Shown here in pieces: positions 16,485 through 61,994 of a stretch of 64,000 nt of DNA. The stretch is taken from positions 1-64,000 of the forward strand of contig CANQFV010000011.1 of assembly GCA_947599875.1 (NCBI GenBank), read 5' to 3'. The notes under the pieces were generated by a model. That model saw only the letters and a list, made by a program, of their open reading frames with translations, searched no databases and was not told the origin of the DNA. The DNA is from an uncultured Oscillospiraceae bacterium (lineage in GTDB: Bacteria; Bacillota; Clostridia; Oscillospirales; Oscillospiraceae). The translations under genes and the position numbers were made by a program. The first letter of the stretch is position 1; the number at the start of each line of letters is the position of its first letter.

Positions 16485-16551
16485 GCGCGGCTGCAGTGTC
16501 CTTATTTATTGAAAGTACACATAAAACAGAAGAAAAGGAGATTGTGTTTTT

Positions 16552-16785
16552 ATGAAACAGGGCAGATTATTTTATGACAAAGAGTGCGGCAGGTATAATT
16601 TTCATTATGAAGACGAGGACGGGGACAGGCGAGATTATGGCGGTATCCATTGTGGAGAGGTTTTTGAATTCAAACTCAATGATGTCTGGGTTCCTGCCCG
16701 TGTGGAAATGGGCATGAATCAGGAATGGTATCTGGTGGGCCTGCCGGGACTGAAGCTGGACGAGCTGGAGGTGCGTTTAGAATAA
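16552..16785 (+). CDS. DUF5348 domain protein
   Basis: 77 residues. The pattern YGGIHCGEVFEFKLNDVWVP then a WYLVGLPGLKLDELEVRL end matches the small DUF5348 family found on conjugative elements of Clostridia. It is soluble and probably a beta-rich domain. AAGGAG lies upstream of ATG 16552. No biochemical function is known. Confidence 0.75.
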   Translation: MKQGRLFYDKECGRYNFHYEDEDGDRRDYGGIHCGEVFEFKLNDVWVPARVEMGMNQEWYLVGLPGLKLDELEVRLE

Positions 16786-16896
16786 AAATATTCTAAAGAT
16801 TATATTACCGGTATAATGACAAACCGAAAGATTGGTGTTATAGTGGTTACAGGTTGAAAACAAAGCAGACCGGATGAGTCCAGAAAGGAAAAAATC

Positions 16897-17055
16897 ATGG
16901 CAACAGTTAATTTCGCTGCGAATGGCTTCGCAACAACTTCAGTTGTTTATTATCTGCATAGCGAACACTATGAGGCACTGTTCAGTAAAGAGAAAGAACA
17001 GAGTCTGGTTAAGATGCGCTCATGCAAGATAAGAAAAAGGCGAAAAACTGTGTGA
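16897..17055 (+). CDS. Possible 52-residue basic protein
   Basis: Reads MATVNFAANGFATTSVVYYL and ends in a basic KIRKRRKTV tail, with AAAGGAAAAAAT before the ATG. The coding DNA holds three small hairpins in a row (TGCGAATGGCTTCGCA, AACAACTTCAGTTGTT, CATAGCGAACACTATG). A TATAAT box lies near 16812. The hairpins raise doubt whether this is mainly a gene or a set of palindromic repeats. Weak support. Confidence 0.35.
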   Translation: MATVNFAANGFATTSVVYYLHSEHYEALFSKEKEQSLVKMRSCKIRKRRKTV

Positions 17056-17160
17056 TGTCTGGAGGCAGGTCTTTTAGGAGGCTGCCGGAATAGAACATGG
17101 ATTTCATGTACCGCTTATCTTAAGATGAGGAAATCTCTTCGAGATTGGCGGTATTTTTAT

Positions 17161-17303
17161 GTTCCATTAGCTCAGTTGGGAGGAGCACAAGGGATAAAAA
17201 ACATCCCTGACTTTTAATCGAGGAGTCATGGGTTCAAGGTCTCCGCTCCGCTTCGGTCGGTGCTGGGCGTGGTCCACCGGACCACAGCACCCCATATGGA
17301 GCA
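17161..17303 (+). tRNA. tRNA-Lys(TTT), interrupted
   Basis: Acceptor GTTCCAT (17161-17167) pairs with ATGGAGC (17296-17302), discriminator A. The D arm is GCTC/GAGC, the anticodon loop CTTTTAA gives TTT, and T stem ATGGG pairs with CCCAT. The T loop starts TTCAA and then contains a 53-bp hairpin element (17238-17290). A second short hairpin (AGGGAT/ATCCCT) lies between D arm and anticodon arm, and the anticodon stem has a C-A mismatch. It is either a pseudogene or needs processing. Confidence 0.6.
17238..17290 (-). repeat. tRNA-inserted hairpin element, copy A
   Basis: Lies inside the T loop of tRNA-Lys. On the complement it reads a hairpin GTGCT...GTCCGGTGGAC...AGCAC followed by CGACCGAAGCGGAGCGGAG. 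Inverted relative to copies B and C. Confidence 0.65.
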
Positions 17304-17343
17304 TTGCCGCCTGATATTAAGGTTTGATATGGAGGTGAGGATC

Positions 17344-17598
17344 ATGGTGAATGTGCCGGTTATAGATATGATAAAGACAGGACAGAACATAAGCAGGCTG
17401 CGGAAGCAGGCAGGTTTGTCGGTAAGGGATTTACAGGATATTTTTGGGTTTGTTACGCCGCAGGCTATATACAAGTGGCAGCAAGGCGTTGCCCTGCCGA
17501 CCATAGATAATCTGGTGGTGCTTGCAGCGGTTCTGCAGGTGCGCATGGATGATATTCTGGTCACTGATATGGCAGCGCAGATACAGATCAGCGCATGA
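17344..17598 (+). CDS. XRE-family regulator inside the tRNA cluster
   Basis: 84 residues from ATG 17344 after GAGGTGAGG. The HTH_3 domain runs from NISRLRKQAGLSVRDLQDIF through YKWQQGVALPTIDNLVVLAA. The protein is only a DNA-binding domain with a short tail. It lies between tRNA-Lys and the first tRNA-Glu on the same strand, an unusual position. It may regulate the element or be cargo with the tRNAs. Confidence 0.82.
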   Translation: MVNVPVIDMIKTGQNISRLRKQAGLSVRDLQDIFGFVTPQAIYKWQQGVALPTIDNLVVLAAVLQVRMDDILVTDMAAQIQISA

Positions 17599-17655
17599 AT
17601 GAGAGATAGAAAAGAAAATAGTAATAAAACAGCAGGCTGAAAATGCCTGCAGCAA

Positions 17656-17728
17656 GGTTCCCTGGTCTAAAGGTTAGGACACCGGCCTTTCAAGCCGGAG
17701 GTATTGGGTTCAAGTCCCATGGGAATCA
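17656..17728 (+). tRNA. tRNA-Glu(TTC)
   Basis: Acceptor GGTTCCC pairs with GGGAATC (one G-T). D arm GTC/GAC, anticodon stem CCGGC/GCCGG with loop CTTTCAA, T loop TTCAAGT, discriminator A. One T-T mismatch in the T stem. Uninterrupted. Confidence 0.9.
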
Positions 17729-17732
17729 TTAT

Positions 17733-17805
17733 GGCTCCTTAGTCTAAAGGTTAGGACGCCGGCCTCTCAAGCCGGAGATGTCGGGTTCAAGCCCCGCAGG
17801 AGCTA
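17733..17805 (+). tRNA. tRNA-Glu(CTC)
   Basis: Acceptor GGCTCCT pairs with AGGAGCT. Anticodon stem CCGGC/GCCGG with loop CTCTCAA gives CTC, T loop TTCAAGC, discriminator A. It lies 4 bp after tRNA-Glu(TTC) and has a similar body, suggesting duplication. Uninterrupted. Confidence 0.9.
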
Positions 17806-17807
17806 CT

Positions 17808-17950
17808 GTGACCATAGGATAGTGGCAGTAAAGCGAACGCAGTTCGCTATGCAGATATGTGGCTCTGCTTACGGGGCGCAAGATGTCCGGGGGACATCTG
17901 TTCTGCGCCGACCGAAGCGGAGCGGAGACCGATTCCCCCTGGTCACCCCA
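17808..17950 (+). tRNA. tRNA-His-like(GTG), interrupted
   Basis: GTGACCA (17808-17814) pairs with TGGTCAC (17940-17946), followed by C and an encoded CCA, a His-type end. The anticodon arm GCAGA/TCTGC holds TATGTGGC with GTG, one base longer than the usual seven. The D region contains a small hairpin AGCGAAC/GTTCGCT. T stem GGGG/CCCC is split by hairpin element copy B just before CGATT. It probably does not work unless the inserts are removed or tolerated. Confidence 0.55.
17875..17930 (+). repeat. tRNA-inserted hairpin element, copy B
   Basis: Stem GGCGCA/TGCGCC around GATGTCC-GGG-GGACATC and TGTTC, followed by CGACCGAAGCGGAGCGGAG and ACC. It is inserted in the T loop of the His-type tRNA. 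Confidence 0.65.
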
Positions 17951-17951
17951 T

Positions 17952-18085
17952 GGATGGGTATGCCTAGCGGCGAGGTTGCTATGGTCCGGTGGACCATGTT
18001 CAGCAACGACCGGAACGGAGTGCAGACCAGCGGACTGTAAATCCGTCACACAGAAACACCGCAGGTTCGAGTCCTGCCCCATCCA
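17952..18085 (+). tRNA. tRNA-Tyr(GTA), interrupted
   Basis: Acceptor GGATGGG (17952-17958) pairs with CCCATCC (18078-18084), discriminator A. Anticodon loop CTGTAAA gives GTA, with stem GCGGA/TCCGT. T arm GCAGG-TTCGAGT-CCTGC is intact. The D-loop region is replaced by hairpin element copy C (17975-18028). It starts 1 bp after the encoded CCA of the His-type gene. Confidence 0.6.
17975..18028 (+). repeat. tRNA-inserted hairpin element, copy C
   Basis: Stem GTTGCT/AGCAAC around ATGGTCC-GGT-GGACCAT and GTTC, followed by a diverged tail CGACCGGAACGGAGTGCAG. Lies in the D loop of tRNA-Tyr. Confidence 0.65.
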
Positions 18086-18091
18086 CTTTCC

Positions 18092-18176
18092 GTTTGCGTG
18101 TCCGAGTGGTTTATGGTTCCACCCCGCTAAGGTGGTGTGCGGCAACGCACCGAAGGTTCAAATCCTTCCGCAAACG
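18092..18176 (+). tRNA. tRNA-Ser(GCT)
   Basis: Acceptor GTTTGCG pairs with CGCAAAC, discriminator G as usual for serine. Anticodon stem CCACC/GGTGG with loop CCGCTAA gives GCT, long variable arm GTGTGCGGCAACGCAC, T arm GAAGG-TTCAAAT-CCTTC. Uninterrupted class II tRNA; last gene of the cluster. Confidence 0.92.
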
Positions 18177-18206
18177 CTCTTAGAATAGAATGCACAACAT
18201 AAAAAA

Positions 18207-18245
18207 GGACCGGTGGATACCGGTCCAATGTCATTTTATTCTTTT
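18207..18245 (+). terminator. Terminator after tRNA cluster
   Basis: GGACCGG / CCGGTCC hairpin at 18207-18226, then AATGTCATTTTATTC and a T-run. Confidence 0.7.
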
Positions 18246-18308
18246 TGCTTCATTCTTATCTGCTCCAGATTATTCTCTTTTGATGAATTCGTGTATCCCT
18301 TTCATACC

Positions 18309-18476
18309 CTAATCATTTTCATAATCGGATATAACAGAGTTGACGTATTCCAAATCAAGCTGTAAAGAATCAGCAATATCTTCATTGCTGACACCCTTAT
18401 GGTACAGCTTGAGAATTTTTGTAGCAAGCGTAGCGCCTAATTCAAGATTTTCTCTATCTCTTTGTAATAAAGTCAT
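18309..18476 (-). CDS. Small orphan tail of an Rpn-type protein
   Basis: 55 residues, MTLLQRDRENLELGATLATK then ILKLYHKGVSNEDIADSLQL and DLEYVNSVI. This resembles the C-terminal helical tail of Rpn/PD-(D/E)XK nuclease proteins of Lachnospiraceae, without the nuclease part. AGAGG lies before the ATG. It sits directly downstream of a complete family member (18545), separated by a hairpin GGGGAAGT...ACTTCCCC. Likely a short regulator or decayed paralog. Confidence 0.5.
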   Translation of the reverse strand: MTLLQRDRENLELGATLATKILKLYHKGVSNEDIADSLQLDLEYVNSVISDYEND

Positions 18477-18544
18477 ATACTCGACCTCTGATTTTGTATA
18501 AAATTAGGGGAAGTGCATACTTCCCCTTGGGTATTTACTGAAAC

Positions 18545-19393
18545 TTATACTGTTACACTTTCATCCTGAAGGCGAAGAAGTTCCTCCTCAGTTAAACCAG
18601 TAATTTTCATTATTTTTACAATATCGATGTTTTCCTCTAACATGGATTTTGCCATATCCCTTACTTTCTGGTTACCATATTCAATCTTTTCTTTTTCATA
18701 AAGCTGTCCTAACTGCGTCATATTGATTCTCCTCCTTATCTGATCCAGATATTCTCTTTTGATAAATTTGTCACTTGCAACGATTACGCCGGAAAGGGTA
18801 AAAATCCGTTGTTCCTCATCCGTTATCTGCTCTGCCAGATCCACAACTTTTTCCAGCATTTCCTGTTTCCCTCTGGAACCGGGAACTGTCAGGGGCAGGA
18901 TGACCAGCTTCATCAGGTCATCATCCTCAAGCATTTCACCGGAGTGGATTTTCTGACGGATCGTGTTATATGCTGCCTCCCCGTCTATGTGGGACAGAAA
19001 AGCCTGCTCTGTGCGGAGTGTAAGGCATTTGGTTTCAAAGGTTGGTTCAGCGCTTTTAACATCACCGGTATAGATGACAATCAGGCGCAGGTCAAAATTT
19101 TCATCCTCTTTATAGTATTTTTCCATAACCCGTGTAATATAATTCAGGTATTTTATCTTATTCAGTTTTTTAAATTCAGCTTCATAATCAACAATGGCAT
19201 AGGTTCCGTCTTCCAGCAGGAACAGGTTGTCAATGTCTTTTGTGTTTGCTGAGATTTTCGGCAGGTTTGTCGGAAGCAGTTCCCGGATGGGTGGGAGGTC
19301 GATTCCGTATGCCGCAAAGCTTTTTTCTTTATAGGTCTGGCCAAGGATTTTAAACAGAATATCCTTGTTCTGGTATGCTATTCCCTCTGACAT
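18545..19393 (-). CDS. Rpn-family PD-(D/E)XK nuclease/transposase-like protein
   Basis: About 282 residues from ATG 19393, chosen for GGAGG 6 bp upstream. The N-terminal core contains DNLFLLEDGTYAIVDYEAEF followed by KKLNKIKYLNYI, consistent with the D...ExK pattern of the Rpn recombination-promoting nuclease family. The helical C-terminus ends MKITGLTEEELLRLQ. E. coli Rpn proteins cut DNA and raise RecA-independent recombination. Lachnospiraceae carry many copies. No inverted repeats mark it as a mobile unit here. Confidence 0.75.
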   Translation of the reverse strand: MSEGIAYQNKDILFKILGQTYKEKSFAAYGIDLPPIRELLPTNLPKISANTKDIDNLFLLEDGTYAIVDYEAEFKKLNKIKYLNYITRVMEKYYKEDENFDLRLIVIYTGDVKSAEPTFETKCLTLRTEQAFLSHIDGEAAYNTIRQKIHSGEMLEDDDLMKLVILPLTVPGSRGKQEMLEKVVDLAEQITDEEQRIFTLSGVIVASDKFIKREYLDQIRRRINMTQLGQLYEKEKIEYGNQKVRDMAKSMLEENIDIVKIMKITGLTEEELLRLQDESVTV

Positions 19394-53044: not shown

Positions 53045-55009
53045 TCAGGACATGATGGATTTCTTATCCGTCATGATAATCCCACAGTCTTCATCCGTGG
53101 GGAAAAATGCCGGCGGGTCTTCCGGAAAGTCCGGTTCCGGTGCTGTGGCAGCTTCAGGGGAAGGCGCCTTTCTGGGCGTTTTCGCTTTTCGGGGTTTTGG
53201 CTGCGGTTTCATCAGCTTTGAGAAGTCCGGTTCCGGTGTTTCCGGATTCCTGCGCCACTGCGGGATGTGGTCACTTGCACGGCTTTCCTTCAGCTTTTTG
53301 CTTTCCGGGTGGAGGGTGTAGTCATATTTCCCCACCTTCAGTACCTTCTGTCCCCGCAGGATAATCAGGGCTTCATCCAACGGCAGCCGCAGCACTTCAT
53401 CCGGTGTCAGGAGCTTGCGTTTTCCGATAGAATGTGTCTCCCGGTATTCCGGCGTGTAATCCGATACCCGCCAGGTGTTTAACTGCTTTGCCTGGCTGGA
53501 TACGGCCACACTGACTTCGCCGGTGCGGTTTGATATAAATTCCGCTGTCAGTTCATCGGTACAGCCTAAGAAAAGCTGTGTGTCGCAGTTGCCGATGATC
53601 TCCTGCCACTGGTTTAAGGGGTAGCGGTTCTGCATCTGGGGCAGGTTCTGGAAGATACAGCTGATGGATAACCGTCTGGAACGGATGGTGCTGATCTTCT
53701 TGGTCAGGTCTGCGATAGTGCAGCCGCCGTTTGCAAGCTCATCCGCCAGGATATGTACCGGGACCGGGAGCTTCCCGCCTTCCCCGTACTTGTCCGCATA
53801 CCGCACCAGTTTGATGAAGACAAAGGACATGAACAGGGAGGAGAGGAAGTCAAAGGTGGAATCCTGGTCCGAGGTGATGCAGAAATAGGCGCATTTTTCA
53901 TATCCGGGCTGCGTCAGGCTGATTTCGTTATAGCTTGTGATCTGCCGGATCAGCCTGTTCTGGAATACCTGGAGCCTTGTGCCCAGACCGATAATGACGC
54001 CGCTGCGCACCGTGTCGGATGCCTGCTTGAAAATATTGTAGGGCGCTTTTGCCGGATGCGTGACCGGGAGCAGGTCAAAGAGGCTGTTCAGCTCCTTTTC
54101 GGAATTCATGGTCAGTAGCTTGTATACCTGCCCGATGTTTTTTCCCTCCGGTGGGAAGCCCTGGTCCACATACAGCACAAGGGCTTTTAACAGGTTCATC
54201 TCTGAGTTGTCCCAGAAATGGTCACCCTTTGGGGAGCCTGTGTTTTTGATGATGACATCACAAAAGAGCTGTGCCATGATTTCCTGCCCTTCGATTTCCG
54301 CAAGGCAGTTCCAGCTGTCGGAATTTTCCGGGTTGATCAGGTTGAACACCCGCACGGTGTAGCCGTTTTCCTCAAGGTAGAGGCACAGATCCGCATAAAG
54401 CTCTGATTTCGGGTCCGTAATGATAAGGCTCTCCCCACGTTTCACACATTGGAAAACGACATTTCTTGCATACGCGCGGCTTTTCATGCTGCCACTGGCA
54501 CCAAAGACTGCCACATTGCGGTTCATCCGTGTTTTTTCAGGAAGGCAGACTGCCTTTCCGTTAAGTTTCCCTAAGATGACGCCGCGGCATTTTGAGATGT
54601 CGGAAACCAGTTCCAATACTTCACGCAGCTCTGTATCGGTCATAAAGCCGGAGGTGCCGTAGGTTCCCTTGTCGGAGTAGGTCAGGTTCCGTTCCTTGTC
54701 ATAGGTTCCTTTCCCATGAAAGCCCATCCGCATCACCATGAAGATCAGAAGGCTTAGGATGCCCACGCACAGTGCAATCCCATACAGGCTGTAAGGGAAT
54801 ACAGTGAGCGCTTTCAGGCAGGCGCCAAAAGAGCCGTCCGGGAATGCGGGCGAAGAGCCGTTTCCCGGTGTGCCTCCGGATGAAGTCCAGATCCGGTAGT
54901 TGATGATGAACTGGGATACATATCCGCCTGCATAGGCAAGTGCAGTGAGCAGGACGGGCAGGACAAGAAAGAGTGTCAGTTGTTTCTTTTTGTTTTCTGT
55001 CAGTTTCAG
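53045..55009 (-). CDS. VirD4/TraG-type coupling protein, probable CTG start
   Basis: About 654 residues if translation starts at CTG 55009. GGGAGG lies 8 bp upstream and CTG forms a CTGA overlap with the stop of the upstream gene. The usual start codons in this frame come only after the membrane region (GTG 54766), and a stop lies at 55025-55027. The N-terminus has the expected membrane helices (LTLFLVLPVLLTALAYAGGY). Walker A VFGASGSMKSRAYARN and ILADELANGGCTIADL are typical. A Pro/Lys tail may bind the relaxase. Brings DNA to the VirB4 channel. Confidence 0.88.
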   Translation of the reverse strand: MKLTENKKKQLTLFLVLPVLLTALAYAGGYVSQFIINYRIWTSSGGTPGNGSSPAFPDGSFGACLKALTVFPYSLYGIALCVGILSLLIFMVMRMGFHGKGTYDKERNLTYSDKGTYGTSGFMTDTELREVLELVSDISKCRGVILGKLNGKAVCLPEKTRMNRNVAVFGASGSMKSRAYARNVVFQCVKRGESLIITDPKSELYADLCLYLEENGYTVRVFNLINPENSDSWNCLAEIEGQEIMAQLFCDVIIKNTGSPKGDHFWDNSEMNLLKALVLYVDQGFPPEGKNIGQVYKLLTMNSEKELNSLFDLLPVTHPAKAPYNIFKQASDTVRSGVIIGLGTRLQVFQNRLIRQITSYNEISLTQPGYEKCAYFCITSDQDSTFDFLSSLFMSFVFIKLVRYADKYGEGGKLPVPVHILADELANGGCTIADLTKKISTIRSRRLSISCIFQNLPQMQNRYPLNQWQEIIGNCDTQLFLGCTDELTAEFISNRTGEVSVAVSSQAKQLNTWRVSDYTPEYRETHSIGKRKLLTPDEVLRLPLDEALIILRGQKVLKVGKYDYTLHPESKKLKESRASDHIPQWRRNPETPEPDFSKLMKPQPKPRKAKTPRKAPSPEAATAPEPDFPEDPPAFFPTDEDCGIIMTDKKSIMS

Positions 55010-57710: not shown

Positions 57711-60710
57711 TTAGACGGCTTCCGCCATCTGCCTGCGCTGTTTCTCCTTTTCCAGAAGCTTTTTCAGTTCCTCGCGGTCTGTGGTGATCAGCTCTTTTTC
57801 CAGTTCGGAAGCCTTAAATTCCACGGTGACGTTATTATTATTGGTGGAGATCAGGCCGTTGCCCCTTTCAAAGTGGGTGACTGCCATTGTCTCCGCTTCG
57901 GACAGGTGCAGGATGGACTGCACGCGCATCGCCTCCTCATCCTCAAGGTTCAGGACAATCTTGGTCTTGGAATTGTTGATGATTCCCTTTCCGTATTTGC
58001 CGTCCTCCAGCGCAAAGAAGTCGTTTAGGTCCTGTGTGGCACAGATAGCAGAGCCGCCGTAGCCACGGATGATCTTGAAGATCTCCAGCACGAACTCTGC
58101 GGCAAGTCGGTTGGATGCCGCCCCGATGAGCTGCCATGTTTCATCAATGAAAATCGCTTTCTCCACGGTACGGTCTTCCTTTGCTTTGTCCCAGACATAA
58201 TCCAGCGCCACAAACATACCCACGGTCAGCAGGTCACCGGTCAGCTCTGAAATATCCAGTACCGTATACTTGTTGTCAAGGTTTACGTTAGTCTGCTGGT
58301 TGAAGGTTGAGGCGGAGCCATGCACCAGACGGTTCATGATGTTGGCAAGGCGCTTTGTGTCCGGATTCTGCTTCAGTATGTTGAATACATCTTCCAGTAC
58401 CGGCATTTCCCGGTAACTTTCCGGGTGTTCCGGGTCAGGCAGGCTTTCATTGTTATGGGTGATGCCCTTCTGGTTATAGGTCTGTATCAGTGCTTCATCC
58501 AGGAGCTGCCGTTCCTCATGGGTCATATCCGGAATCAGTAAGGAAAAGAAAATATGCAGCCGCTGTATCTTTGCCGCAAGCTCCGATTTTTCCGTCTGGG
58601 GGCCGTCCAGCAGGTCATTTGCGGAGGAATCCACTTTCCGGATTTCCATGATGTTGATACAGTTTCTGGAAGCGGGTGAAATCTGGATGAATTCCCCGCC
58701 GATGTTGCTGCAGGCCCGGTGGAACTCATGGCCTTTTAAGGGGGCTATGATAAATACCTGTATGTTCCTGCGGCGCATCCGGAGCGCCATGAGCTGCATG
58801 GTAAAGGTCTTGCCGGCACCGGAGGTTCCGAGGATTGCCATGTTCGCATTCTTGTAGACACGGGAATTGAAGATATCCACAATAATCAGCGAATTGTTAT
58901 GCTTGTTTACCCCTAAGAGGATGCCGTTGTCATCGCACATCTCAAAGGAAGTAAAAGGGTAACAGCTTGCAACGCTGCCTGTCAGGATGTTGCGCTTGGA
59001 ACGCTCAAACAGCTTTTTCTCCAGCGATACCAGAGGCAGGGCGGAAAGCAGGGCCTGCTCCTCCCTGAAGTGGCAGGACACCGCTTCCATGTCCTGCGAA
59101 AGCAGCAGCTTTTTCATTTCATTGGTGCGCCACTCCAGTTCCTCAAGGCTGTCAGCCGTGACTGTGATCAGGATGTTCATGTAATAGAAATCCTCGTTGG
59201 AAGCAAGCCCTTCCTTTAAGAAATAACCGGAACGTATGGCACTGTCTAAGTCATCGAAGTCCGAGTTTGTATCGGAGGTATCCTTGATCTTGGAGCGGTT
59301 AATCCTAAGCTGCTGTCCGAGTTTCTGCTGGATGCGGTCTTTCGGCTGGCGGTCAAAAAAAATGTCTACGTCTATGCCTTCCCCTGCGTTGACAAGAAGG
59401 GAGATCCATCCGGCACACACCTGCGGGCGGTAGCCCCCGGAAGGGACTAAGAGGTAGGTATGGTAAGTGCCGTCCATGACGACGTAATTGCCGTGGGTAT
59501 AGTCGATGGATTCCGGTGCGATGAACTCCATTGCGGGGATATTCCCGATCTCATCCCGCCTGCCGGCATTGATGTACTGCCCGATGACCTCATTGACACG
59601 CACGCTTAAAGGCTTTACCACACTGGTTTTTCTGTTCAAAATGCTGTAGAACACCTCGGCGGCCATTTCATCCTCATTGTCGGGGATTAAGAGTTCATTC
59701 CCGCACTGCTGGAGATAGGTTTTTGCCGTCCGAACGGCAGTCGTGAGGGCAGAGATGGCGTCGCTCTCCTCATTTCCACGGTTTGCCGTAAACGGCTCAT
59801 ACTCAAAGATTATGAAAAAGCGCCTTGTGATGGCTTCCCTGGAACCGATGCGGCGTATCAGGCTTTCATAATCCTTCTGAAGCGCAAGGCAGCGTTCATC
59901 CGTTTCCTGCCGCATTTCTTCCCGCAGGGTTTCCAAATGGCGGTTGATGTCAGCACGTCTGGTAAGGACCTTGAACTGGAGCTTTACGGGGCTTATCTTT
60001 AGGTAGCTGATAAAGGAATAAATAATGTTCCGCTGCTCCCTTGCGCTCCTAAGCAGGAAGTTGATAGGGATGACCTCTATGATTTTGACATAGCGGCGGT
60101 CTCTGGTGTATATGATGCCGTTTTCTATCTTTCGGATGGGGAGGTAGGAAGCGGCAGGGTTTAGCAGCTCCGGTTCCGGCTCCTCCCTCATGCGCTCCCG
60201 CATCTGGGAGACGGCGTGTTTCTTTTCCCGGCGTTCACCTGCAGCCTTATCAGCCGTCTGCCTTGCCTGCCTGCGTTCCTTGAACTGCCCGAATTCCTCA
60301 GCAAAATCCTCTTTTTTGGGTTTCGTTTTCTTTTCCGCTTTATTCGTTCTCTGCTTCCGCTGCTTTCCGGGTTTCTTTTCCTTCTCCGGTAGTTCGCCTG
60401 TATCCTCCTGTATTCCCACAACCCTGCGGTTTTTCAGGTATACGAAAAAGTTAATGACGAAAGAAGACAGGCTTTCCCCGTTAATGCCGATAATGGCGAA
60501 CAGGGCTGCCGGGAGTACAGTCAGGCAGGCGATAATGATCTTTGTCGTCAGCGTGACGGGGATATGGAATACCGGAAAGCCGATGAGCAGTGAGAGGATA
60601 AGCGCCTCTGCCGCATTCCTGAGCTTGATGGTTCCGCCGAACACCGTTCCGGTATCAATGAAATTTGGCGGGATGATATATATGTCGTTTTCTTCTGGTC
60701 GCATGGACAT
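57711..60710 (-). CDS. PrgI-VirB4 fusion, conjugation ATPase
   Basis: 999 residues from ATG 60710. The first 90 residues have two membrane helices (LILSLLIGFPVFHIPVTLTT and ILTVLPAALFAIIG-like) as in PrgI/TcpE. A basic coiled region (about 100-180) follows, then the VirB4 domain with Walker A ILGTSGAGKTFTMQLMALRM and Walker B KAIFIDETWQLIG. In most Gram-positive elements PrgI is a separate gene; here both parts are one polypeptide. It energises channel assembly and transport. Confidence 0.92.
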   Translation of the reverse strand: MSMRPEENDIYIIPPNFIDTGTVFGGTIKLRNAAEALILSLLIGFPVFHIPVTLTTKIIIACLTVLPAALFAIIGINGESLSSFVINFFVYLKNRRVVGIQEDTGELPEKEKKPGKQRKQRTNKAEKKTKPKKEDFAEEFGQFKERRQARQTADKAAGERREKKHAVSQMRERMREEPEPELLNPAASYLPIRKIENGIIYTRDRRYVKIIEVIPINFLLRSAREQRNIIYSFISYLKISPVKLQFKVLTRRADINRHLETLREEMRQETDERCLALQKDYESLIRRIGSREAITRRFFIIFEYEPFTANRGNEESDAISALTTAVRTAKTYLQQCGNELLIPDNEDEMAAEVFYSILNRKTSVVKPLSVRVNEVIGQYINAGRRDEIGNIPAMEFIAPESIDYTHGNYVVMDGTYHTYLLVPSGGYRPQVCAGWISLLVNAGEGIDVDIFFDRQPKDRIQQKLGQQLRINRSKIKDTSDTNSDFDDLDSAIRSGYFLKEGLASNEDFYYMNILITVTADSLEELEWRTNEMKKLLLSQDMEAVSCHFREEQALLSALPLVSLEKKLFERSKRNILTGSVASCYPFTSFEMCDDNGILLGVNKHNNSLIIVDIFNSRVYKNANMAILGTSGAGKTFTMQLMALRMRRRNIQVFIIAPLKGHEFHRACSNIGGEFIQISPASRNCINIMEIRKVDSSANDLLDGPQTEKSELAAKIQRLHIFFSLLIPDMTHEERQLLDEALIQTYNQKGITHNNESLPDPEHPESYREMPVLEDVFNILKQNPDTKRLANIMNRLVHGSASTFNQQTNVNLDNKYTVLDISELTGDLLTVGMFVALDYVWDKAKEDRTVEKAIFIDETWQLIGAASNRLAAEFVLEIFKIIRGYGGSAICATQDLNDFFALEDGKYGKGIINNSKTKIVLNLEDEEAMRVQSILHLSEAETMAVTHFERGNGLISTNNNNVTVEFKASELEKELITTDREELKKLLEKEKQRRQMAEAV

Positions 60711-60779
60711 TCTGTGATGCACCTCCTAAAATATTTGCTGAAGGCGGGAAAGGCAGGGATGTGCCCTTCCCGCCATGGA

Positions 60780-61994
60780 TTACTCTGTGTATGGTCTGCC
60801 GCACAGGACAATGCTGCCCGTACTGTAAATGGGGCGGTAGACTACTTTTTTCTTGGAATAAGAAGCGTCTACCACATAACCGTCTCCGGCGTAGATTGCC
60901 ACATGGCTGATATTCAAGTAGCGGTTGTTTACTTCAAAGGAGTAAAAGATCAAATCGCCGGGGGCAAGGCTGTCATAGGATACGGCGAGATTGTTTTCGG
61001 TAATGTATCTTGCCTGTGCAGCCGCTGTGTTGGAGCCACCATGCTGCAGGGAAATCCCTAACTGGCTGTATACCCAGTAGGTAAAGGAACTGCAGTCAAA
61101 ATATCCTTCCTGGTTCCGCCGCTCCTGGCTGTAAGGTGTGCCCAGCTTTGTCAGCGCAAGGCGGGCCGCTTTGTTCCCGGTTTCTCCCGGTATCAGGTCC
61201 GGATTGATCTCCACCTGATACACTGTGTCAAATAAAAACAGGTGCAGGTTGGAGGCGTAGTCCTCCGCCATCTGTGCCTGTTCTGTGGTCAGGTGGAACA
61301 CGTTTCCCGCAAAAAAGCTGTCCCCGGCATATTCCACCGTATATTCATAGTGGTATATGGTATGGCTTTCCCCGGTTTCTTCATCTGTTTCCTCATATTC
61401 CGTTACCTGCGTTGAATAGGTAAAGATGCCATCCGTATTGTCACGCAGTATCCGCTCCAGCTTCGGGAGGTTAATCTCACGGTAATCATCCTGCGAAGCG
61501 CAGAACTGGGAGATGACCAGTGCGCTTTCATAGATGATGCGGTCCGAAAAATCATCCGTGATGCCGTATTCGCAGTCCGGGCCGAGGGAATCCACCTCCC
61601 GCTGTATTTCTTCCAGCAGGGCATCATGTTTTTCCCGCAGGATGGCTTCGATGGAGGTTTCCGCTTCCGCAATGTTCTCCATGATGTGTGCATTGTCCCT
61701 GAGTACATCGGAGGAAGCAGTATCAAGCCCCTGGTTCCCGAAGATCAGGGATGGCAGCATCAGGATGAACAGGATTGGCAGCATCAGAAGAAAGGCAAAA
61801 GCAGCCAGTATTTTTCCAACGGTTTGCCTGTTTTCCCATAATCCGGCAGCCAGCATCCCGTAGGGACCTGCCGCAGCGCCTTTCGCAGCTCCGGCAACTG
61901 CCTTTCCGGTCTTTATGGCGCTTTTTGCGGCACCTGCGGCTGATGCGGTCATAGACAGGGCGGACTGTTCTTTCTTTTGGTTATTTTCAGCCAT
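60780..61994 (-). CDS. Membrane-anchored NlpC/P60 peptidoglycan hydrolase
   Basis: 404 residues. A cytoplasmic Ala/Gly/Lys-rich start, one membrane helix (ILAAFAFLLMLPILFILMLP, about 62-82), a stalk, then a C-terminal NlpC/P60 domain with the catalytic Cys in YFDCSSFTYW, His in ISHVAIYAGDGY and the final polar residue near VDAS. It opens the cell wall so that the channel can cross; VirB1/TcpG-type role. It starts at the stop of the previous gene. Confidence 0.93.
   Translation of the reverse strand: MAENNQKKEQSALSMTASAAGAAKSAIKTGKAVAGAAKGAAAGPYGMLAAGLWENRQTVGKILAAFAFLLMLPILFILMLPSLIFGNQGLDTASSDVLRDNAHIMENIAEAETSIEAILREKHDALLEEIQREVDSLGPDCEYGITDDFSDRIIYESALVISQFCASQDDYREINLPKLERILRDNTDGIFTYSTQVTEYEETDEETGESHTIYHYEYTVEYAGDSFFAGNVFHLTTEQAQMAEDYASNLHLFLFDTVYQVEINPDLIPGETGNKAARLALTKLGTPYSQERRNQEGYFDCSSFTYWVYSQLGISLQHGGSNTAAAQARYITENNLAVSYDSLAPGDLIFYSFEVNNRYLNISHVAIYAGDGYVVDASYSKKKVVYRPIYSTGSIVLCGRPYTE

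Follow-up and report, generated by a model that had tools for sequence, protein, structure and literature searches.

Three tRNA genes in an array of an uncultured Oscillospiraceae bacterium were found to be interrupted by copies of one short palindromic element, here called E. We consider that E is probably a miniature, non-autonomous mobile element that enters loops as DNA and most likely inactivates the tRNA concerned. Near-identical arrays with and without E provide natural before-and-after pairs in common gut bacteria, with sites that look structure-defined, and these pairs make the search for a mobiliser concrete. E also shows one route by which mobile tRNA arrays lose tRNAs.

A tRNA array interrupted by three copies of one element

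The window (the whole stretch of DNA analysed here, 64,000 of the 66,318 bases of its contig) contains conjugation genes (Table 1). After a small conserved ORF, the order of the array is Lys, an XRE-type regulator, Glu, Glu, His, Tyr and Ser. ARAGORN reported only the two Glu genes and the Ser gene in the window; the Lys, His and Tyr genes were missed because each is split by a copy of E, and the Rfam tRNA model scored the Tyr gene at 26.6 bits, below the cut-off of 29. tRNA genes with E in a loop can escape tRNA finders, as happened in the window, which is a warning for annotators.

An initial annotation, made from the letters alone, had described one insertion in each of the Lys, His-type and Tyr genes, located in the T loop of Lys and His and in the D loop of Tyr, and had called the three insertions copies of the same repeat. 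All of this was borne out. The insertions measured 54, 56 and 54 bp, respectively, their sites could be read from the sequence together with its relatives, and a scan of the window with a covariance model of E (filters off) returned three strong copies (Table 1), with the next best place at 9.8 bits. The Lys copy has the opposite orientation to the His and Tyr copies. The same annotation had stated that the acceptor, anticodon and T-arm parts all keep pairing, but not all tRNA parts proved intact: Lys has a second insert and a bulged anticodon stem, and His has an insert in its D arm. When the window genes were folded, the acceptor stems of His and Tyr closed and that of Lys stayed open.

Table 1. 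Features of the tRNA array and conjugation genes in the window.
Feature	Position	Strand	Evidence and remarks
Small ORF	16897..17055	+	Directly before array, kept among relatives (alignment)
tRNA-Lys(TTT)-like	17161..17302	+	E in T loop and second hairpin insert before anticodon stem; read from sequence
Hairpin insert in tRNA-Lys, unrelated to E	17185..17207 (limits approximate)	+	Alignment with relatives
E copy, T loop of tRNA-Lys	17238..17291	-	Antisense to tRNA; covariance model 65.5 bits
XRE-type HTH gene, 84 aa	17344..17598	+	Within tRNA array; Pfam HTH_3 on longer ORF 17260-17598
tRNA-Glu(TTC), empty	17656..17728	+	ARAGORN; T-loop E in L274 and L124
tRNA-Glu(CTC), empty	17733..17806	+	ARAGORN; T-loop E in L274 and L310
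tRNA-His(GTG)-like	17808..17947	+	E in T loop, other insert in D arm; empty orthologues in L309, L310
Second hairpin insert, His D arm, unrelated to E	17832..17848	+	Common to L136; comparison with relatives
E copy, T loop of tRNA-His	17875..17930	+	Covariance model 82.1 bits
tRNA-Tyr(GTA)	17952..18085	+	E in D loop; empty orthologue in L276
E copy, D loop of tRNA-Tyr	17975..18028	+	Covariance model 56.1 bits
tRNA-Ser(GCT), empty	18092..18177	+	ARAGORN; anticodon-arm E in L274, L275, L124, L050, L330
T4SS coupling protein	53045-54766		
TraG-type ATPase	57711-60722		
NlpC/P60 protein	60780-61994		

The inserts other than E were also compared among relatives. Orthologues of the Lys gene in L276 and L274 (L numbers denote loci) contain E without the second insert, and the orthologue in L309 is empty. 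A non-E hairpin insert similar to that at 17185-17207 occupies the same place in Lys of L338, the second array of genome G371; thus, the hairpins that enter array tRNAs are of several kinds. The His gene of L136 has a D-arm insert similar to that of the window. The end of the window's His D-arm insert (17842-17857) is a 16-nt exact inverted copy of 16951-16966, within the small ORF ~900 bp upstream, and the insert looks as if it were a template-switch copy of this small-ORF stretch.

Structure of E

In an alignment of 40 distinct 56-nt copies, E consisted of an outer stem of 6 bp and an inner stem of 8 bp closed by a 3-nt loop, together with a 4-nt bulge and a tail of 21 nt; E ends in GACC after this tail. 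Pairing was kept in 99.5% of cells and 12 of the 14 pairs changed on both sides, with 114 double-change cells compared to 28 in shuffled alignments; sliding the partner by 1–3 columns reduced pairing to 30–48%. The 40 copies had been picked for a fully paired outer stem, so the inner helix is the part that is free of this filter, and here 99.1% of cells were paired and all 8 pairs changed on both sides in some copy. There were only 2 G-U cells in the alignment, which suggests that selection for the structure acts on the DNA and that a DNA palindrome fits better than an RNA.

Of 83 copies in which the outer stem was complete, 24 belonged to a form of E that is two bases shorter. The first 126–129 copies were fetched using the tail, and conservation of the tail is thus by construction; the 21-nt tail pattern had 0 matches in 100 shuffles. 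No match of E to Rfam was obtained at an E-value of up to 1 (positions 16500-18600 of the window). Tandem runs and compound arrays of E were also observed (L092, L135, L145, L046 and L126).

Filled and empty alleles in related arrays

Arrays of the same family differed in the genes that carry E. The three longest segments around the arrays of L276 and L274 are 98.6–99.6% identical, and in both loci E is present in Lys and His and absent from Tyr, which is filled in the window. The Glu-TTC, Glu-CTC and Ser genes are all empty in L276 and all filled in L274. In L309, Lys, both Glu genes, His and Ser are empty and Tyr contains two copies, one in the D loop at the site used in the window and one in the T loop, while in the covered part of the array of L310 the only copy is in Glu-CTC. 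As shown by these differences between near-identical or orthologous arrays, E is mobile on an evolutionary time scale. The empty state was taken as ancestral since it corresponds to a canonical tRNA. Relative to empty alleles, E replaced approximately one base in Glu, Lys and Tyr and two to three in His (Ser was less clear), and no target-site duplication was found in the empty and filled alleles, in which one to a few bases were replaced overall. E does not have the features of a classical MITE of a DDE transposon, namely terminal inverted repeats (its tail has no inverted counterpart at the opposite end) and a target-site duplication.

Some copies would represent insertions of their own. L319 has a relocated Lys gene with E in its T loop, at a position other than that in the window, and L330 has one copy in the D arm of Glu plus a clearly different one in the anticodon arm of Ser; both loci speak for independent insertions. 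The filled alleles do not, however, each stand for an event of their own. L274, L275 and L124 have exactly the same Ser copy, and only a few bases separate the L274 Glu copies from their counterparts in L124 and L310, so some alleles were inherited or exchanged. Part of the polymorphism, as read here by allele comparison, can thus be explained by recombination or exchange between arrays. The His copies of the window and L276 differ at 1 of 56 positions, within a surrounding region that is ~81% identical, a near-identity that would reflect either constraint or homogenisation. In L275, a deletion has left E as the link between the 5' portion of Lys and the 3' portion of Glu-CTC; to judge from this junction, E copies can also act as recombination points.

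Insertion sites

Site preference was assessed on 188 copies of E with flanks (150 distinct), a sample that combined the tail-fetched copies with 60 regions from high-scoring listed hits in five genomes and is not a random census. A T-loop motif was found in the right flank at offset 0 (15 sites), offset 2 (15 sites) or offset 1 (1 site), compared to 0.42 per position further out. Thus, 31 of 150 distinct sites had the motif within offsets 0–4, 30 of them at two fixed offsets, with ~2 expected over the five offsets. A tRNA spanned the joined flanks of 18 of the 188 copies, cf. 3, 4, 4, 4 and 8 in controls with swapped flanks, the calls in which were partly chimaeras of tRNA halves. Among the sites first seen in orthologous arrays, 5 of 7 were T loops (~1e-4 in a rough binomial calculation limited to tRNA bases and using estimated base counts). 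Copies were also present in D loops and anticodon arms, and in tRNA genes outside this array family.

Flanking inverted repeats were scored at the 106 other sites, defined as those without a T-loop motif and without E-like sequence in the flanks. The mean score was 10.90 compared to 9.38 (sd 0.26) after permutation, and 26 of the 106 sites scored at least 14, cf. 9.3% in permutations; an earlier test on 90 copies had given 11.18 against 9.67 (sd 0.30). As these repeats are stronger than in permuted flanks, E tends to sit in hairpin loops. The same test within the 31 T-loop-motif sites gave a z of 0.7, which is uninformative because the flanks of these sites share sequence. Overall, the preference of E is strong for tRNA T loops and weaker for other hairpins, and a large share of sites shows neither.

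These results qualify the earlier idea of a tRNA-targeted repeat, which agrees with the recurrence of T loops and with arrays that differ in E but not with the location of most copies outside recognisable tRNAs. Random decayed gene fragments in related elements, together with repeats also common outside tRNAs and no RNA product, had been named in the initial annotation as what would refute it. Half of this applied: the repeat was indeed common outside tRNAs, and some of the interrupted genes had decayed.

The site data also bear on an explanation without any targeting, according to which a REP-like palindrome inserts at any place, with recombination between arrays contributing to its spread, and arrays are merely tolerant of it through their dispensable tRNAs. 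Approximately four fifths of the 150 distinct sites had no T-loop motif, arrays also hold other hairpin inserts, and several filled alleles look shared or exchanged, all of which speaks for such undirected spread. Against it stand a T-loop motif that peaks at two exact offsets, the excess of T loops among the array sites and the presence of E in tRNA genes beyond this array family, and we regard it as unlikely.

We favour insertion of E as DNA into loops. A hairpin would be extruded where DNA is single-stranded, presumably on the lagging strand or during conjugative transfer, and E would move into its loop. Entry would occur via an enzyme, usually with ~1 base replaced and without target duplication, and loss of the tRNA would be tolerated either because the extra tRNAs of the conjugative element are dispensable or because an intact copy lies beside the broken one. 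A more specific proposal, which we put forward tentatively and with considerable doubt, is that a mobility system recognises folded single strands and delivers a 56-nt hairpin into hairpin loops, T loops first, with an enzyme outside the usual transposases and conjugative single-stranded DNA as the favoured target.

Fate of the interrupted tRNA genes

In loci outside the array family, an intact tRNA gene (Gly, Lys, Arg, Leu, Met or Pro) was found close to E, and its 3' end was copied beside E. Such 3'-end copies of at least 10 nt were present at 20 of 150 sites, 17 of them within 115 bp of the intact tRNA (a count made without a control). The order of intact tRNA, downstream E and then the 3'-end copy was seen in L027, L056, L071, L075, L089, L116 and others, and in L056, L075 and L116 E and 3'-end copies formed repeated units with a terminator. 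L219 has an intact tRNA-Arg(CCT) with an E-interrupted copy on one side and a 3' fragment containing E on the other, and in L254 a second tRNA-Leu(CAA) begins beside the interrupted one and is truncated by the end of the contig. In L064, L111 and L123, the vicinity of the interrupted tRNA showed no intact copy.

Further inserts or breaks were gained by interrupted genes (Lys and His of the window, L136, L338 and L344). Empty array tRNAs decay too (L343, L345 and L338), and decay is therefore no hallmark of interruption. Also speaking against inactivation, the Lys and His bodies of L276 and L274 are intact apart from E and fold with the acceptor stem closed; the Lys gene of L124 has a compensatory change in the anticodon stem, yet its acceptor stem is broken. 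Because an intact tRNA can stand beside the broken copy and array copies frequently decay, insertion of E most likely inactivates the tRNA. Two other roles had been suggested in the initial annotation. No support was found for decoy tRNAs, and there was little for genes rescued by processing, in view of the two orientations of E, the intact tRNA beside the broken copy and the frequent decay.

Distribution of E and search for a mobilising enzyme

The covariance model reported three copies of E in the window's own genome, all in this array, which ruled out a repeat family of the host. With this genome counted, E was present in 4 of 34 genomes of the genus and, under stricter filters, in 5 of 220 sampled genomes of the family. 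The 30 genomes reached via E-bearing loci (13 labelled Lachnospiraceae and 11 without a label) had from 1 to 107 copies, and seven genomes had 26–107, six of these labelled Lachnospiraceae and the seventh (L126) without a label. In a genome scan covering at least 120 loci, 80 had a taxon label, including 54 Lachnospiraceae and 2 Oscillospiraceae. Thus, E is most abundant in Lachnospiraceae. The present host is probably not a member of that family, and the array with E was probably brought into it by transfer, on a conjugative element. A known phage or plasmid repeat was discarded as a candidate since the 56-base E query had no blastn match at 1e-5 in phage or plasmid collections, although E was present on four viral contigs.

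A search for PF01797 (Y1 transposase) in 12 E-bearing genomes and a grouping of the ORFs of 101 E loci into families yielded no mobilising enzyme. PF01797 was found in 8 of the 12 genomes and not in the other 4, including G368 with its 26 copies of E. Only 1 of 26 Y1 loci had E inside (L192), and a second pair, ~1.6 kb apart, was outside the fetched flank (G387 contig 36), giving two E–Y1 pairs at distances of 1.2–1.6 kb. A Y1 transposase is therefore not supported as the mobiliser of E, although its absence from E-bearing genomes is not decisive because an array could have gained its copies in another host. Seven ORF families occurred in at least 4 of the 101 loci, and the sole family concentrated at E was an ORF running across the tRNA array itself.

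The T loop of tRNA genes is a preferred site of tyrosine integrases, for which crossover in the T loop is known. If E were a scar or attachment site of such enzymes, the many sites at which an intact tRNA and a terminator are followed by E and a tRNA 3'-end copy would resemble a close attL-attR pair, and in these 3'-end copies E is indeed like tRNA-targeting integrative elements. An integrase-like ORF family, read as tyrosine integrase from its sequence, was also found in 4 of the 101 loci at a median of 595 bp from E, using a grouping that would not unite unrelated integrases. However, E is only 56 bp long with no integrase regularly adjoining, the clean array alleles have ~1 base replaced and no direct repeat, and insertions also occur in D loops, in anticodon arms and in further hairpins. 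We thus judge an origin from integrase sites to be improbable.

Relation to known palindromic elements

As a mobile DNA element, E is known in kind, being REP-like, and no E-like element was described in the open-access literature searched. E shares with REP and REPIN sequences a short, palindromic, dispersed and non-autonomous form, with a bulged stem and one conserved end; it reaches 107 copies per genome, arranged as singles, tandem runs and, by eye, some inverted pairs. In contrast to REP/RAYT (TnpA-REP) systems, E has no GTAG/CGTC tag of the kind given in the available part of PMC3733652 and ends in GACC after the tail, Y1 genes were not found in some E-bearing genomes (4 of 12) and are rarely near E, and tRNA and hairpin loops are preferred. 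Rickettsia palindromic elements (RPE), which the same part of that source describes within protein genes (PMC3733652), are likewise small palindromic elements inserted within genes, and E is set apart from them, by that description, through its location in tRNA loops.

XRE and RtcB genes in the vicinity of the array

The array is part of a wider module. Loci L308-L337 were selected for their similarity to the array (including its XRE gene) and comprised ~1.5 kb of flank; 28 of these 30 loci had an XRE gene of this family. A match to RtcB-type RNA ligase was found beside the XRE gene in 15 of the 30 (broken or split in L327 and L333); absence of RtcB from the remainder is weak evidence because the flanks are so short. 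E was present within these short flanks in 3 of the 15 RtcB-bearing loci (L319, L323 and L333), and in L108 an RtcB-like gene directly follows an E-interrupted tRNA-Lys. The window's array is without RtcB, and no RtcB match was obtained in its own genome.

Archaeal tRNA introns at non-canonical positions are inserts in the T and D loops of tRNA genes. The possibility that E is a comparable intron-like insert, removed from RNA by a nuclease and a ligase such as RtcB so that the genes remain functional, would suit the intact bodies and closing acceptor stems of L276 and L274 and the proximity of RtcB (L108 and half of L308-L337), but it is very unlikely given that E, unlike those introns, is dispersed and palindromic, stands in either orientation with respect to the tRNA and in three different loops, and lies mostly outside recognisable tRNAs, that an intact copy adjoins the broken one in several loci, that interrupted copies decay (as in Lys and His of the window, L136, L338 and L344), and that just 3 of 15 RtcB-bearing loci have E within their short flanks while the window's own genome has no RtcB match.

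A tRNA-Lys, an RtcB-type RNA ligase, an XRE gene and a tRNA array were observed as a recurrent module (L108:4637-6596; L317, L319, L320, L324, L326, L328 and others). This module could serve as a mobile cassette for the repair and replacement of tRNAs, directed against tRNA-cutting toxins. In Anabaena, one repressor controls a plasmid tRNA operon and rtcB, according to the available part of PMC10272220, and the parallel to the XRE/RtcB module is one of logic only.
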